DNA from: a virus
Strand: one strand, 5' to 3'
Virus record (IMG/VR): IMGVR_UViG_3300031669_000001
Coordinates: 281,070 to 345,069 of that record
Length of the DNA stretch: 64,000 nt
The position numbers and the translations under genes are program-made. Under the pieces are notes generated by a model. That model was not told where the DNA came from. It made no database searches and saw only the letters and a program-made list of their open reading frames with translations. Positions 1 to 11,614 of this stretch are shown piece after piece (within the stretch, counting starts at the first letter, position 1; every line of letters begins with the position of its first letter).

Positions 1-951
1 GATCGTTTCAATCTCAGGCGCTATCTTCTTCTGAAGAAGGTTCAATTGATTTTCATACTCAAGGTCTGTAGCGCCTCGAAGTCCCCTGAAGATAAACTTT
101 GCGCCTGAGTTTGCTGCGTAACTAACGATCAGTTCGTCGGATGGAATGAAGTCGATTGTGACTCTCGCCATTTGTTCAGGTGACAGGACTTCTTGTAACG
201 TGCACTTTACTAGCTGCGATCTCGTCTCATCATCGAAAAGGTATTTCTTAGATGGGTTTGATGCTACAGCGACGATGATATAGTCCACTATATCAAGCGC
301 TCTTTGAATGACCCAGGTGTGTCCCAGTGTAATCGGATCGAATGATCCAGACACTATACCGATCTTCTTTCCCTTCAGCTGCTTCTTACGCATGAGGTCA
401 AGAGCTTTCTTTATCTCCAATTGAAGATAATTTTCTTCATGTATCGCTCTTATTCCATTGTAGATTATCGCATCGCTAACCGCAAATCTATGTTCGTCTG
501 TAGTTTGAGATTCCATGATAGCCAAAATTTGATCTTGTGATCGTCCATCTCTATCACTCACTCGCTGAATCTGTAAGCTAGGGGGAGACACCACTGAGAT
601 TACAAAGTCAAACCTTGAAATCAACGTTGGAGCGTTCTCAACTAATAACGGGAACTCTAGGATAAAGTCATTCCTTTGCATAAGAGTTTCAATCTTCCTA
701 GAGATTATGTCATGAAAGATGAATTCAAGCTCTTTCATCGCTTGCTTATCTGCAAAAACAATATCACGTATCTTTAATCGATCGCTTGTTCCAAATTCCA
801 GCCTTAAAGCGCTGCATATTTCTGGATTATCATACGCATCCCTTACAAATTCATCTATGCTAAAGACGTGATGATTTGGAAGAGCGTCAGCTAACAACTG
901 ACATACTGTTGATTTGCCTGAACCTATCCCACCTGTTACTACGATCTTCAT
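1..951 (-). CDS. CoaE-CoaD fusion: dephospho-CoA kinase + phosphopantetheine adenylyltransferase (3' end outside window)
   Basis: The reading frame starts with ATG at 951 and is still open at base 1, giving 317 visible residues. The N-terminal ~190 residues are dephospho-CoA-kinase-like: P-loop GGIGSGKST at residues 7-15, then the usual CoaE-type core. The C-terminal part is phosphopantetheine adenylyltransferase-like: nucleotidyltransferase motif GSFDPITLGH at 202-211 and RGLRGATDLEYE at 289-300, where CoaD has its RGLR-DFEYE motif. These are the last two steps of CoA synthesis. The order kinase-adenylyltransferase is the reverse of animal COASY. The last part of the CoaD domain, with its C-terminal ISSS-type motif, lies beyond the edge. 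The start overlaps the upstream stop (ATGA). Cytosolic. The family call is firm; activity of both domains is inferred. Confidence 0.88.
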   Translation of the reverse strand, partial: MKIVVTGGIGSGKSTVCQLLADALPNHHVFSIDEFVRDAYDNPEICSALRLEFGTSDRLKIRDIVFADKQAMKELEFIFHDIISRKIETLMQRNDFILEFPLLVENAPTLISRFDFVISVVSPPSLQIQRVSDRDGRSQDQILAIMESQTTDEHRFAVSDAIIYNGIRAIHEENYLQLEIKKALDLMRKKQLKGKKIGIVSGSFDPITLGHTWVIQRALDIVDYIIVAVASNPSKKYLFDDETRSQLVKCTLQEVLSPEQMARVTIDFIPSDELIVSYAANSGAKFIFRGLRGATDLEYENQLNLLQKKIAPEIETI

Positions 952-1238
952 GATATTTTTACCTCGAATGAAGTTTTGATTTCAGCTGGTGTTACCTTCA
1001 GCGCCAAAAAGTTCTTGTCACCATAAGTAGCAGATAAACGTTTTTTGATCTCATCTTCCCATTCTTGCTTTTCGGTGTACGCAACGTACTCTAAAAAGTG
1101 TTCTGTTGAAGCTGGATATCCGTGACCTGGAAAGTCAATGCTTCTCTGATCGCCTGGTATCGAGACAGAACGATTCTCGATGATCGCGTAGTGCTCTGTC
1201 TTTGGCACTTCACTTGTGTTATGGCAATATTTTATCAT
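948..1238 (-). CDS. hypothetical protein, 96 aa
   Basis: I do not recognise this family. It is a soluble, charged 96-residue protein with no signal peptide or membrane segment. Its TGA overlaps the ATG of the CoaE-CoaD gene (ATGA), and its own start overlaps the stop of the gene before it. It is therefore translated in a coupled chain ending in the CoA enzyme. No function can be assigned. Confidence 0.75.
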   Translation of the reverse strand: MIKYCHNTSEVPKTEHYAIIENRSVSIPGDQRSIDFPGHGYPASTEHFLEYVAYTEKQEWEDEIKKRLSATYGDKNFLALKVTPAEIKTSFEVKIS

Positions 1239-3624: not shown

Positions 3625-5109
3625 TTACGCGTAGGTGGTATCTGCCCGTGCCCAAGACTGTACTTCATCGAAGTCTTGGAAGCGTTTTTGCGCACCATCT
3701 TTTGACCACAATCTCCAGCCAGGACCATCAACGAAGAAGGAAGCTGGGTTGGCAGTGCAATCACGAACCTCCAACTCACCGCTTTCCAGTTCGAAAGGAC
3801 GAACCAAACCACGCAGAGACTTCTTGCCCAGGTCGGTGATTGGTTCTTTAACCAAAGACCTCCAACCGTTTGCATCCATCATCGCGATTGCCTTCATGCT
3901 GAAGCTGAAGTCATCGCGAGCACCTTCGTGGGTAACACCAGCACCCATACCCAAGGTCAGGCTGTCCATGCTGTAACCTTTGCTAGTGAATCCTTCCAGC
4001 ACTGGCTCGATGGTGTTGATGCGGATTCCATCACCTTGGATGACGGCGGTGCAAGGTGCCAAGACCTTGTAACCGGCTGCATTCTTGTGGACACCGAAGG
4101 TATCTTCGATGTCCTTTGCGACCCGCGCCGGCTCAACAGTTGCATCGCCAGAGTCAGGACGCATGACCATCACACCACCACTGTTCTCGATCTCTTCGCG
4201 GAAGGTTTCACCCATGTACTCACGAACGAAGCGGCGAGCATTGTAGGTGTCGATAACGACGCTCAACAGTGGGATGCCTATGCCGCGCTTAGTACGAGCA
4301 ACAACGGCGTGCAGGCGTTTCACTGCCATCTTCGCGGCGCCGAAGTCATCACGCTTGTCAGCGTCGCTGTGCGCGCACATTACGCTGTGCTCAGTAGCTT
4401 CAACGCTTGAGGTGTATGGCTTGTTGGAGAAAACGGTGTTCTTGTTGAACAGAGCTTTGATGTAACTGTTTGCGCGAGTGCAATCGCTACCATCGAACAT
4501 CGCTGCGTGAGCGATACCCGCGATGACAGCAGCTTCATCTGGACTGTCTGCACCACGATCGCCGAAGTTGTGCAGCTTGTAATTCAGCATTCCCATGTTG
4601 GCGCCGGTCTTCTGCATGTACTTGGCGATGATGATGCGAGCTGCGCGGCAGGTACTTGCTACGGTAGACATCTTCCAGACGGTGCATTGAACGACAGTCT
4701 CGACATAAGTAGGCAACCAGGCAAAGAGATCGTGAGTATTGACGATACCCAGCACTGGAGTTTGAGGCTTGACGATACGACCTTCTTCAACTGCCCATAC
4801 TTCCAGCGGCAGCTTGCCGTCCAAATAGTCGACCATGTACTGCCAGTCGGCGCGGTTGAATTCGTATCCTTGTTGGGTGATTTCGATATCAGCTTCATCG
4901 ACCATCCACTGTTCGATGCGCACTGAAGCCAAAAAGTTTGCTACGTAGGTTTGACCCATCGCGACGATCTTATCTGCGTACTTGCTGGGTTTACGTGGAA
5001 CGATAGCTGCGTAAGAACGCAGAGTTCCGTCGGGCAATTCTTGCCAGTGACCAGCTTTGTAGCTGTCGCAGGCCAGAATAAAGTTGAAGCGCTTTATCAT
5101 TTGTAACAT
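3625..5109 (-). CDS. nadV: nicotinamide phosphoribosyltransferase (NAMPT/NadV)
   Basis: 494 residues, full length for the family. It converts nicotinamide plus PRPP to NMN, the first step of the two-step NAD+ salvage route. Hallmarks in order: DSYKAGH at 15-21, HNFGDRGADSPDEAA at ~180 (human HDFGYRG region), EATEHS at ~237-242 with the catalytic His, VVIDTYN at ~284, MRPDSGDA at ~316 (PRPP binding), IQGDG at ~357, and GMGAGV at ~387. The start at MLQM is supported by AAGGAG six bases upstream. Its partner, the NMN adenylyltransferase, is at 7187-8344. Together they form a complete nicotinamide-to-NAD+ pathway. Confidence 0.95.
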   Translation of the reverse strand: MLQMIKRFNFILACDSYKAGHWQELPDGTLRSYAAIVPRKPSKYADKIVAMGQTYVANFLASVRIEQWMVDEADIEITQQGYEFNRADWQYMVDYLDGKLPLEVWAVEEGRIVKPQTPVLGIVNTHDLFAWLPTYVETVVQCTVWKMSTVASTCRAARIIIAKYMQKTGANMGMLNYKLHNFGDRGADSPDEAAVIAGIAHAAMFDGSDCTRANSYIKALFNKNTVFSNKPYTSSVEATEHSVMCAHSDADKRDDFGAAKMAVKRLHAVVARTKRGIGIPLLSVVIDTYNARRFVREYMGETFREEIENSGGVMVMRPDSGDATVEPARVAKDIEDTFGVHKNAAGYKVLAPCTAVIQGDGIRINTIEPVLEGFTSKGYSMDSLTLGMGAGVTHEGARDDFSFSMKAIAMMDANGWRSLVKEPITDLGKKSLRGLVRPFELESGELEVRDCTANPASFFVDGPGWRLWSKDGAQKRFQDFDEVQSWARADTTYA

Positions 5110-5821: not shown

Positions 5822-6044
5822 ACCTTTTTTGGAACTGGAATCCTTCTCCGCGAAGGTAACATCCAAGATATGGACCTCTTTGACCTGGATCACGAGGGAA
5901 ACCTTCTTCGAACAGCTTAACTTCTCCATATCCAAGAGAGTTCAGCCAAGTTTGAAGTTGATCTTTAGTCAAGATATAGTCGTCAAGGTCTTGCCACTCT
6001 GTAACGGGAGTATCACAAAACACTCGACGACTCTGGTACGTCAT
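5802..6044 (-). CDS. hypothetical protein, 80 aa
   Basis: Unrecognised soluble protein, coupled to the ATP-grasp gene by a 4-base overlap at its start. Its 3' end overlaps the promoter of the next gene. No motif seen. Confidence 0.7.
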   Translation of the reverse strand: MTYQSRRVFCDTPVTEWQDLDDYILTKDQLQTWLNSLGYGEVKLFEEGFPRDPGQRGPYLGCYLRGEGFQFQKRYVLPLE

Positions 6045-6853
6045 CTCTCCATCCCTTCCAACGCCATCACTATCTCCATCACGTTTCCTGCGTAGAAGCC
6101 AGATGCATTGATGGTGTTGATCTCTACTATCTTCATGCCGTCAGGAGTCTCACAGACGTCAAGTACGTAAGCTCTGTGCGGTTGCCATGCACTCGTTGTC
6201 ATGCTCAAGGTGATATCACCAAAGCGGATAACTTGGGCTGCAAACCAACGCACCGCGTCATCAACGACAGGTGAATAGATCACGCGATTGCCTCTTTTGT
6301 AAAGAGAGGCTGTAACAATTTTCTTATCGACTATCCAAAAACGGTACTCAGCAAAGATCTTCTTTGGAGTGCAGACTTGGACGAGAGTGCTAGGCATTAA
6401 GCTGTTACCGTAGTCCAGTTCCAACACGCAAACGTTACGCTGCCAATCCTGAAATTCTTCCCACTCAAAGACCCGGCCAGCGAAGACCTTCGAGTCCTCG
6501 ATAGGACGAATGAACCGCGGCTCATCATCAGTCCAATGCACGTCTTTGAACTGAACAACTTTAGCGTCAGCGTTCAGCATCATGTCACCCCAATGCTGCA
6601 ATTGAATCTCAAAGTTGATAGGCTCGAGATCATACACTCCTGGGTTCCAGTTGTTTGCCTTTGCTGCATGACGCATCGAGTATGATCCAAAGCAGATAAC
6701 TTTGTCCTGCTTGGGTTCAGCGGGCGGTACCAACTCACCGATGAAGGGTACTACCTTGTGAATAGAGTATGGAATCTTGAAGCGATCCAGCGTTCCAACC
6801 AAGTTATCCCACTCGGCTTCATTGAACAAATTTGTTTGTAAAATCCAGTGCAT
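6041..6853 (-). CDS. ATP-grasp domain protein (DUF4343-like)
   Basis: 270 residues. The C-terminal half has the ATP-grasp layout: KVFAGRVFEWEEF, a central EYRFWIVDKKIV strand pair, and near the end AYVLDVCETPDGMKIVEIN, which carries the Asp/Glu/Asn metal-binding residues. Phage proteins of this type are usually annotated ATP-grasp/DUF4343. They are expected to form an amide or peptide-like bond using ATP, but the substrate is unknown. It sits between the two NAD-salvage genes, which may or may not be meaningful. Confidence 0.75.
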   Translation of the reverse strand: MHWILQTNLFNEAEWDNLVGTLDRFKIPYSIHKVVPFIGELVPPAEPKQDKVICFGSYSMRHAAKANNWNPGVYDLEPINFEIQLQHWGDMMLNADAKVVQFKDVHWTDDEPRFIRPIEDSKVFAGRVFEWEEFQDWQRNVCVLELDYGNSLMPSTLVQVCTPKKIFAEYRFWIVDKKIVTASLYKRGNRVIYSPVVDDAVRWFAAQVIRFGDITLSMTTSAWQPHRAYVLDVCETPDGMKIVEINTINASGFYAGNVMEIVMALEGMER

Positions 6854-7186: not shown

Positions 7187-8344
7187 TCATAATTTCCCCA
7201 GCATGTACTCGATGATGAAGTAGTGATCTTCGAAGAACATCTCAGGGCTCTTCATCACTTCATCCAATGGAACCCACCAGGCCTTCTCAGCATCATCGTC
7301 ACCCTTAACCTTCGGCAGCGATATCTTGCCGTCTACTACGAAGTCAGGCAGCTTAAACAAAAATCCCTTGGTGACAGTGCGACCGCGTAAGGAACGTTCA
7401 GGATAATCGAAGTCTTCTTTGAAGATCATCGAGCTGCGCAGAATCGGTTCAGGAACCTTGATGCGAGTCTCTTCACGCAGTTCACGGATTGCAGCTTCAA
7501 ACAATCGTTCTTTGGGGTTCAAGAAGCCTCCAGGCAGCGCCCACAAACCTTTTCCAGGACGGCTACGACGTTTAACCAGCAGCACGTGACCAGTTTGGAT
7601 GACGATTGAATCAACCGTCTGGAAGATTGGTTCGTAGCGAAGACCGGGATCATTTTGACCATAAGTTCCAGGATCACGTGGTATGTTCGGTTTACGATAC
7701 TCGATGTTGAAGAGATGCTCTTCACGCAGGTTGTCGTAGAATGGAGTCTCTTCGAAAGCGCGAAGCTCATTAATCGTTTCAGCTGGCAAGAATGCGTTCA
7801 ATAACAATTCTGCGTGGTTAGCGGTGATCTCGTTGCCATCGAATGAACGGCCAAAGTAGATTTCACGGACTGCGGTGGCGGTCAAGAAGCGACTGACTTC
7901 CATATTTTCATCGACCATGTCAGCGATGAAGTTAGGAAAGTACTTCAAGTAGAACGTTGAGGAATCACGATCAGCACCAGTGATTCTGATCTCAATGTCT
8001 TTGGGATTGAGTTTGACTTGCTCAGCGCTATCAACGAACTCGTTGATCACCTTGTTAACGTTTGCTATCCAAAGTTGATCATTGTAGGGGAAGTCTCGAA
8101 TGCCACGCACTGATACCGGTGCATTTTTAGCGTGTGGAGTCCAAGGACGAGATGCCCACTTATCAATGACGCTTGCACGTTCTTCAAACGTCCAGGGATT
8201 TTTGGGATTTCTTGCTTGATTGATGGAACCGATGAGGACCAGCACAGCGTCCGAGCGCTCACGTGCTCGCTTCAGAACTTCTGCATGTCCATTGTGGAAT
8301 GGGGAAAATCGACCGATGTACACGGTCAGTACAAACTTAGCCAT
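7187..8344 (-). CDS. bifunctional NMN adenylyltransferase / Nudix hydrolase (NadM-Nudix)
   Basis: 385 residues. The N-terminal domain is an NMN adenylyltransferase: GRFSPFHNGH at 11-20 and LTATAVRE at ~154-161 (ATP-binding ISTxxR-type motif). The C-terminal domain is a Nudix hydrolase with the box GGFLNPKERL...REETR at ~272-294. It makes NAD+ from NMN; the Nudix half probably clears ADP-ribose or related nucleotides. The same fusion is known in the KVP40-type vibriophages next to nadV. It has its own early promoter (8401-8429). With NAMPT it can rebuild NAD+ depleted by host defences (NARP2-type pathway). Confidence 0.94.
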   Translation of the reverse strand: MAKFVLTVYIGRFSPFHNGHAEVLKRARERSDAVLVLIGSINQARNPKNPWTFEERASVIDKWASRPWTPHAKNAPVSVRGIRDFPYNDQLWIANVNKVINEFVDSAEQVKLNPKDIEIRITGADRDSSTFYLKYFPNFIADMVDENMEVSRFLTATAVREIYFGRSFDGNEITANHAELLLNAFLPAETINELRAFEETPFYDNLREEHLFNIEYRKPNIPRDPGTYGQNDPGLRYEPIFQTVDSIVIQTGHVLLVKRRSRPGKGLWALPGGFLNPKERLFEAAIRELREETRIKVPEPILRSSMIFKEDFDYPERSLRGRTVTKGFLFKLPDFVVDGKISLPKVKGDDDAEKAWWVPLDEVMKSPEMFFEDHYFIIEYMLGKL

Positions 8345-10614: not shown

Positions 10615-10740
10615 TTATGTCGGCGCGAGCAGGATGCCGGTATTCACTTCGCTAATCTCGCGCTGCTCGGGCGTGGCATCTTTTTCCTCGACGATGCGCT
10701 GCACATCGCCCTGTGCGTCGCGCACGATGCGTCCGTAGCC
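10615..10740 (-). pseudogene. 126-bp fragment of bacterial glmU inserted in phage DNA
   Basis: Read on the minus strand from 10740, one frame encodes 41 residues beginning [20 protein letters not shown] and ending [11 protein letters not shown] before TAA. This is unmistakably the middle of the uridyltransferase domain of GlmU (GYGRI-R, VE-KDAT-EQR-I-E-NTGI). The stretch is much more GC-rich than its surroundings and has no start codon or remaining domains. It has replaced the 3' end of the ThyA-family gene, whose frame runs through it out of register. Either capture of host DNA or an assembly chimera. Confidence 0.82.
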
Positions 10741-11614
10741 GTGATGTGAGCCAACGCGTAAATTCAAACTCTTGAGGGATAGCTTCGAATTGACAAGCTC
10801 TCAAGAACTTAACTTCCGCTGGACCACTGATAGGAGGACAAGAAATTTCCTCATAGGGATCTTTTTTGGTAGTTGGTAACGACAGAAAGTTTTCTCTATT
10901 TTCGATTGTCGATCCTGTGATCTTCTCAAGAAGCTCGAAGTGTCGTTCGTAAACGTGAAAAGAATCTGCAGAGTGATGATAGTTACCGTACTTCAACTCT
11001 GGATAAAATTCACGCAATGCATTGAGCACCATCTCATGAGTAAAACTGAAAGCTGGAGCATCATTTGCCATTCCATAGACAGAATCCTGTGAACGCATCC
11101 TAACGCTCATGTTCAGAAAGTTTTCACGAATCCTGAAGTTTAGCGCGTATGTACAAGGGACGTCATTAGTGTCGCTAAGAAGATGATCTCTGCTTAGAAT
11201 CGATATAGAAGCTCTGCGAGAATCTTTGTCATTCTTTAACTGATTGACGACGTTGTCAAATTGACTTACGGGAGTATCTCTGAAGATATATTGCCCGTAG
11301 TTTGAGTTTATGGATCCATCACGATTGATGAGATTGCCCCACATCTTTGCAAAGTCTGCTATGGAAGTATCAAACTTGTCACCTTTCAGGTACCAGAGAA
11401 ATTCTCTCTTGACGTAGTCTAACTTGAAGCCGCGAGATGCAAAGCTTGTGAATCGGACGAAAGGTGGAAGGTTGTAGGTATAGTTTTCTATTTCAATGGA
11501 CTTTTGACCTCGAGGAGATACTCTCTTTCCTCTTGCAATTAAGTCTTCATAGATGTTTCTAAATGTTGATTCGCTACTGACTACATTATCGTTGTGGTGT
11601 CCTGCATTTGACAT
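10652..11614 (-). CDS. thymidylate synthase / dCMP hydroxymethylase family enzyme with aberrant C-terminus
   Basis: ThyA-family fold: SNYGQYI near 104, DSRRASISI near 131, catalytic DVPC at 151-154, [12 protein letters not shown] at 174-185, and HVY at 220-222. The residue equivalent to Asn177 of E. coli ThyA is Asp (position 185), preceded by Asn, exactly as in T4 dCMP hydroxymethylase (FRND). So a dCMP-directed hydroxymethylase is more likely than a plain dTMP synthase. From about residue 286 the sequence is Arg-rich and out-of-frame glmU, so the native C-terminus is missing or replaced. Activity is uncertain for that reason. Confidence 0.78.

Follow-up and report, generated by a model that had tools for sequence, protein, structure and literature searches.

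In animals, COASY carries phosphopantetheine adenylyltransferase (PPAT) and dephospho-CoA kinase (DPCK) on one polypeptide, in the order PPAT-DPCK. Fusions of PPAT and DPCK are also known from archaea (arCOG04076; PMC6650551). Among viruses, the separate genes coaE (DPCK) and coaD (PPAT) have been listed as auxiliary genes on viral contigs of snow viruses, along with NAD genes (PMC11097641). Because both genes were reported there, only their fusion counts as new here, and not the presence of coaE or coaD in phages. The initial annotation of the DNA studied here was aware of no described phage CoaE-CoaD fusion, and our search of the open-access literature agrees: it returned none from a phage or a bacterium, with most subscription papers lying outside its coverage.

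We analyzed a stretch of 64,000 nucleotides (the window), which forms the right end (positions 281070-345069) of a virus record of 345,069 bp. Its left edge cuts through an open reading frame (ORF) in which a CoaE and a CoaD domain are fused.

A single intact ORF encodes CoaE and CoaD

The fusion ORF is read from position 951 to position 1, with no stop between the CoaE and CoaD domains (Table 1), and reaches 141 bases beyond the left edge of the window to a stop at record position 280929. The last 46 amino acids, encoded left of the window, carry the CoaD end (...FLMTPRELIEISSSLIKG...), giving an intact protein of 363 amino acids. Thus, the initial annotation was right to place both enzymes in one frame, and the CoaD C-terminus that lay outside its view is complete. 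Its concern that catalytic residues might be missing from that end is dispelled by the serines S329-S331. The ORF overlaps both its upstream and its downstream neighbor by 4 bases, all on one strand, as in a phage operon.

Profile searches bore out both domain assignments. The CoaE part (residues 3-170) scored 88.6 bits with the NCBIfam equivalog TIGR00152 (cut-off 65.55), and the CoaD part (residues 198-360) scored 139.1 bits with the equivalog TIGR01510 (cut-off 103.3). The corresponding Pfam scores were 89.3 bits for CoaE and 53.2 bits for CTP_transf_like. In alignment with E. coli CoaE, the kinase domain keeps the P-loop (residues 7-15), D33, H80, and R130/R134, along with the HDI, PLLVEN, RxxxR lid, and QTTxxxR motifs. 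In the CoaD domain, S203, H211, K235, R289, R292, and S329-331 correspond to PPAT T10, H18, K42, R88, R91, and S128-130, the residues whose mutation reduces or abolishes the activity of HpPPAT (PMC12784347). Solved PPATs such as the S. aureus-type 3f3m likewise have a serine at the T10 position.

An AlphaFold2 monomer model of the protein (pLDDT 87.6, pTM 0.69) predicts that the C-terminal helix of CoaE (residues 175-191) runs directly into strand 1 of CoaD, joining the two folds. With this model as the query, Foldseek matched bacterial PPATs at a target TM of about 0.9 and DPCKs at up to 0.78. By name or appearance, the 50 BFVD viral models listed included no CoaE-CoaD fusion.

Table 1. Features of the fusion and of the neighboring NAD-salvage genes, in window positions
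Feature	Position	Strand	Residues	Basis or remark
coaE-coaD fusion ORF	1..951	-	1-317 of 363 inside window	
CoaE (dephospho-CoA kinase) domain	442..945	-	3-170	TIGR00152, PF01121, PDB DPCK matches
P-loop GGIGSGKST	907..933	-	7-15	aligned with E. coli CoaE
Linker	361..441	-	171-197	AlphaFold2 model
CoaD (phosphopantetheine adenylyltransferase) domain	1..360	-	198-317 (to 360 beyond window)	TIGR01510, PDB PPAT matches
CoaD motif GSFDPITLGH	319..348	-	202-211	H211 = E. coli H18
CoaD motif FRGLRGATDLEYE	52..90	-	288-300	R289, R292 = E. coli R88, R91
Upstream ORF	948..1238	-		overlaps fusion start by 4 bases; adjoins fusion in L011 too (54% over 39 aa)
Nicotinamide phosphoribosyltransferase (NAMPT)	3625..5109	-		profile matches
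Bifunctional NMN adenylyltransferase/Nudix (NatV)	7187..8344	-		profile matches

Fused and split relatives

The closest relative, L011, is 61% identical overall, with 73% in CoaD and 51% in CoaE. Its fusion uses the same frame, and its gene order is that of the window: fusion, small ORF, NAMPT, NatV. Two further relatives, L012 (40%) and L013 (44%), are likewise fused, so that the in-frame fusion is common to four records. Because a relative of only 61% identity and two others share it, the fusion is not a frameshift artifact. The initial annotation had allowed that a frameshift might separate two genes; both other frames of the linker are closed by stops. Between the window and L011, pS is 0.77-0.84 and pN 0.18-0.34 across both domains and the linker; with synonymous change near saturation and non-synonymous change not, all three parts are, by this comparison, under purifying selection. 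We therefore rejected a frameshift or assembly artifact on the strength of the fused relatives, the stops in the other frames, and the selection.

In five other records (L003, L018, L020, L033, and L035), coaE and coaD are two adjacent ORFs in the order coaE>coaD. These split pairs mostly touch or overlap, for example at ...TTTTGTAATGCGG in L003. A CoaD tree that included the first four of them placed the window, L011, L012, and L013 in one clade (91/82), which lies inside a phage clade with the split pairs (99/96), apart from the sampled bacterial CoaDs. The CoaE tree agrees with it in grouping the phage CoaEs of the fusions and split pairs together (92/93), with weaker support than the CoaD tree and with L013 outside the group of the other three fusions. 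From these gene arrangements and trees, the best explanation for the window's fusion is that neighboring, touching phage genes coaE>coaD were joined.

More distant fusions also exist. A coaE-coaD fusion in L038 (and also L041) has its CoaD among those from phages of Caulobacter and Brevundimonas (99/89), and the CoaE of L038 scores 49.6 bits, under its cut-off. L048 carries a coaD-coaE fusion, in the COASY order, whose CoaD takes a third place in the tree (97/90) and whose CoaE passes the cut-off. If the tree places the long-branched L038 and L048 correctly, there seem to have been at least three fusion events among phages, in both orders. Further scans of IMG/VR with the CoaD profile and with the L048 protein returned no additional fusions.

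Some details of these distant loci may be recorded here. The L048 fusion (L048:3512-4609) lies on a 68-kb viral contig near DNA ligase and homing endonuclease genes, and its position equivalent to E. coli R88 is apparently Lys. An ORF near the L038 fusion (L038:5596-6567) matches homing endonucleases and, weakly, NAD synthetase.

Rarity among phages and bacteria

CoA enzymes had been called rare in phages, and the deposited records fit this description: 68 of 50,697 matched the fusion protein at E<=1e-5, and no match covered 80% of it. Several of the 68 are probably bacterial contamination. We set aside as evidence the matches in Salmonella, Listeria, Enterococcus, and similar phage records, which are probably bacterial DNA. 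L010 (MW495066.1, Microcystis phage MaAM05) was set aside as well: its coaD stands beside ribosomal protein genes, and the record, with rplA, rplK, nusG, secE, and trxB, resembles a bacterial chromosome more than a phage.

Among bacteria, the search covered three phyla with 398 + 395 + 398 genomes (1,191 in all) and scored five candidates per genome. It found no CoaE-CoaD fusion at E<=1e-45; the one match at that threshold was CoaD alone. As a control, the remote phage fusion L038 was detected at 2.6e-47. Within this coverage, a ready-made bacterial fusion seems an unlikely source. What looks new is the phage fusion, together with its split precursors and its recurrent emergence.

Genome context and the NAD-salvage genes

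The window also encodes rIIA, rIIB, tail-fiber, and helicase genes, and its source is therefore a large tailed phage. This agrees with the phage context read from the sequence at the outset, as does the presence of two NAD-salvage genes, NAMPT and NatV, near the fusion.

This company recurs. NatV and NAMPT were both present in 7/7 records of >=100 kb with coaE and coaD (G000, G001, G004, G006, G007, G009, and G012); NatV was present in 1/7 random viral contigs of >=100 kb (one-sided Fisher p 0.0023). The association is suggestive only, because the sample is small, the coa-bearing records are larger, and the phages are related. The coaE/coaD pairs of L003 and L020 each have NatV no more than about 1.3 kb away. 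The reverse association fails, because 366 phage records carry NatV and few carry CoaD (68 match the fusion protein at all).

Several neighboring genes deserve mention in their own right. The window's NAMPT sits in the same place as that of the closest relative (L136:2147-3733) and is only about 30% identical to it, with neighbors at 50-73%; it is 57% identical to the NAMPT of another phage, G009. It looks like, from these identities, an in-place replacement by a distant version. Between NAMPT and NatV lies an ATP-grasp (R2K clade) protein (6041-6853) of the phage family phrog_7313, whose function is unknown. The thymidylate synthase match of the ORF at 10652-11614 is limited to residues 18-232, and the last stretch of this ORF is Arg/Ala-rich; it may have a frameshift or a changed end.

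Putative function and alternative explanations

Based on the domain scores, retained residues, and model, we consider it probable (about 0.7) that the protein, built from bacterial-type enzymes, works as a bifunctional CoA synthase and supports the CoA pool. A search of the 345,069-bp record, which may be incomplete, revealed no CoaBC (DFP) gene; the control was detected in 14/14 genomes. Without CoaBC in the record, the fusion should act from 4'-phosphopantetheine on. The C-terminal CoaD would adenylylate 4'-phosphopantetheine of the host to dephospho-CoA, and the N-terminal CoaE would phosphorylate this to CoA. The host could supply the starting compound by synthesis, or it could be freed from acyl carrier protein or when CoA is broken down.

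In bacteria, PPAT catalyzes a regulated and limiting step. An extra PPAT joined to the next enzyme could push 4'-phosphopantetheine on to CoA, which would lift the host's late-pathway bottleneck in infection and keep up the CoA pool beside the phage's NAD-salvage pair. Lifting this bottleneck, or rebuilding CoA in infection, is the most likely role. We infer that both domains are catalytically active, that one site passes its product to the other, and that the phage benefits; the active cofactor rebuilding during infection proposed in the initial annotation belongs with these. In many phages CoaD occurs on its own, and the CoaE and CoaD steps therefore need not go together.

A more specific account is that large phages reconstitute CoA from 4'-phosphopantetheine against host immunity, as NARP pathways do for NAD. 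Here, an undescribed host defense, with a possibly Nudix-type effector, or infection stress would break the CoA pyrophosphate bond, and repeated fusion in both orders would reflect selection for quick dephospho-CoA turnover. CoaE and CoaD are exactly the two enzymes required, the possibly incomplete record yielded no CoaBC, which acts directly above 4'-phosphopantetheine, and the window's NAD pair fits the logic of NARP2. The shared presence of NatV and NAMPT in all seven large coaE+coaD records, against NatV in one of seven random contigs, points the same way. However, we know of no anti-phage system that depletes CoA, the NAD genes usually occur without CoaD (366 records with NatV against 68 matching the fusion), and large genomes gather many metabolic genes, such that shared genome size may account for the association. 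We regard this account, including its explanation of the repeated fusions, as unlikely.

Other explanations question the protein itself. One domain could have been repurposed: CoaE might serve as a different nucleotide kinase, or CoaE and CoaD together might tune the pool of dephospho-CoA available for starting capped RNAs. CoaE is indeed the more divergent half, at 51% identity to L011 against 73% for CoaD, but its equivalog-level score and retained DPCK active-site motifs make such a change quite improbable. There is even less reason to expect two separate proteins, with CoaD made its own gene by internal initiation or by an erroneous indel. An in-frame ATG does occur at residue 187, 15 codons ahead of GSFDPIT, and in L003 and similar relatives coaD starts separately (TAATG). 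Yet the in-frame ATG positions are not conserved in L011, L012, and L013, L012 has no ATG in the 40 codons upstream, the nearest purine-rich stretch in the window (GGAG) is 21 bases off the ATG, and four records have the fusion in frame, which leaves this arrangement very improbable indeed.

The bifunctional CoA synthase thus remains our preferred reading. This indicates that viruses of prokaryotes built a CoA synthase of their own, apparently on several occasions and independently of both animals and archaea; sister phages still show the two genes unfused. CoA also appears, beside NAD, to be a cofactor that phages bring under their own control, and gene content suggests that they finish or rebuild it in infected cells.

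Comparison with known systems

Like COASY, the 363-amino-acid phage protein has PPAT and DPCK in one polypeptide. It differs in order, with DPCK (3-170) followed by PPAT (198-360), which is the reversal relative to the animal enzyme that the initial annotation had noticed. It also differs in that its PPAT is of the bacterial CoaD type (139 bits with TIGR01510); the other PPAT subfamily model, the archaeal/eukaryotic-like PRK00777, scored 17.5 bits against a cut-off of 104. By its domain order and its bacterial-type PPAT, the protein is therefore not COASY, though it resembles a CoA synthase in its working.

The archaeal PPAT-DPCK proteins are likewise natural fusions covering the same two steps, but their DPCK comes from an unrelated family and is GTP-dependent where tested (PMC6650551). 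The split coaE>coaD pairs share gene order, adjacency, and the CoaD clade with the fusion (L035 being outside the tree), and differ in having two ORFs where the fusion has one. The Dolichocephalovirinae (Caulobacter phage C1 and Brevundimonas phage Gurke) also combine a phage CoaD with NatV and NAMPT in their genomes; there, CoaD stands alone, and no CoaE was found in those genomes. The snow viruses offer the same two genes in the company of NAD genes, in a paper whose text makes no mention of a fusion (PMC11097641), whereas the phage described here carries both enzymes in a single protein.
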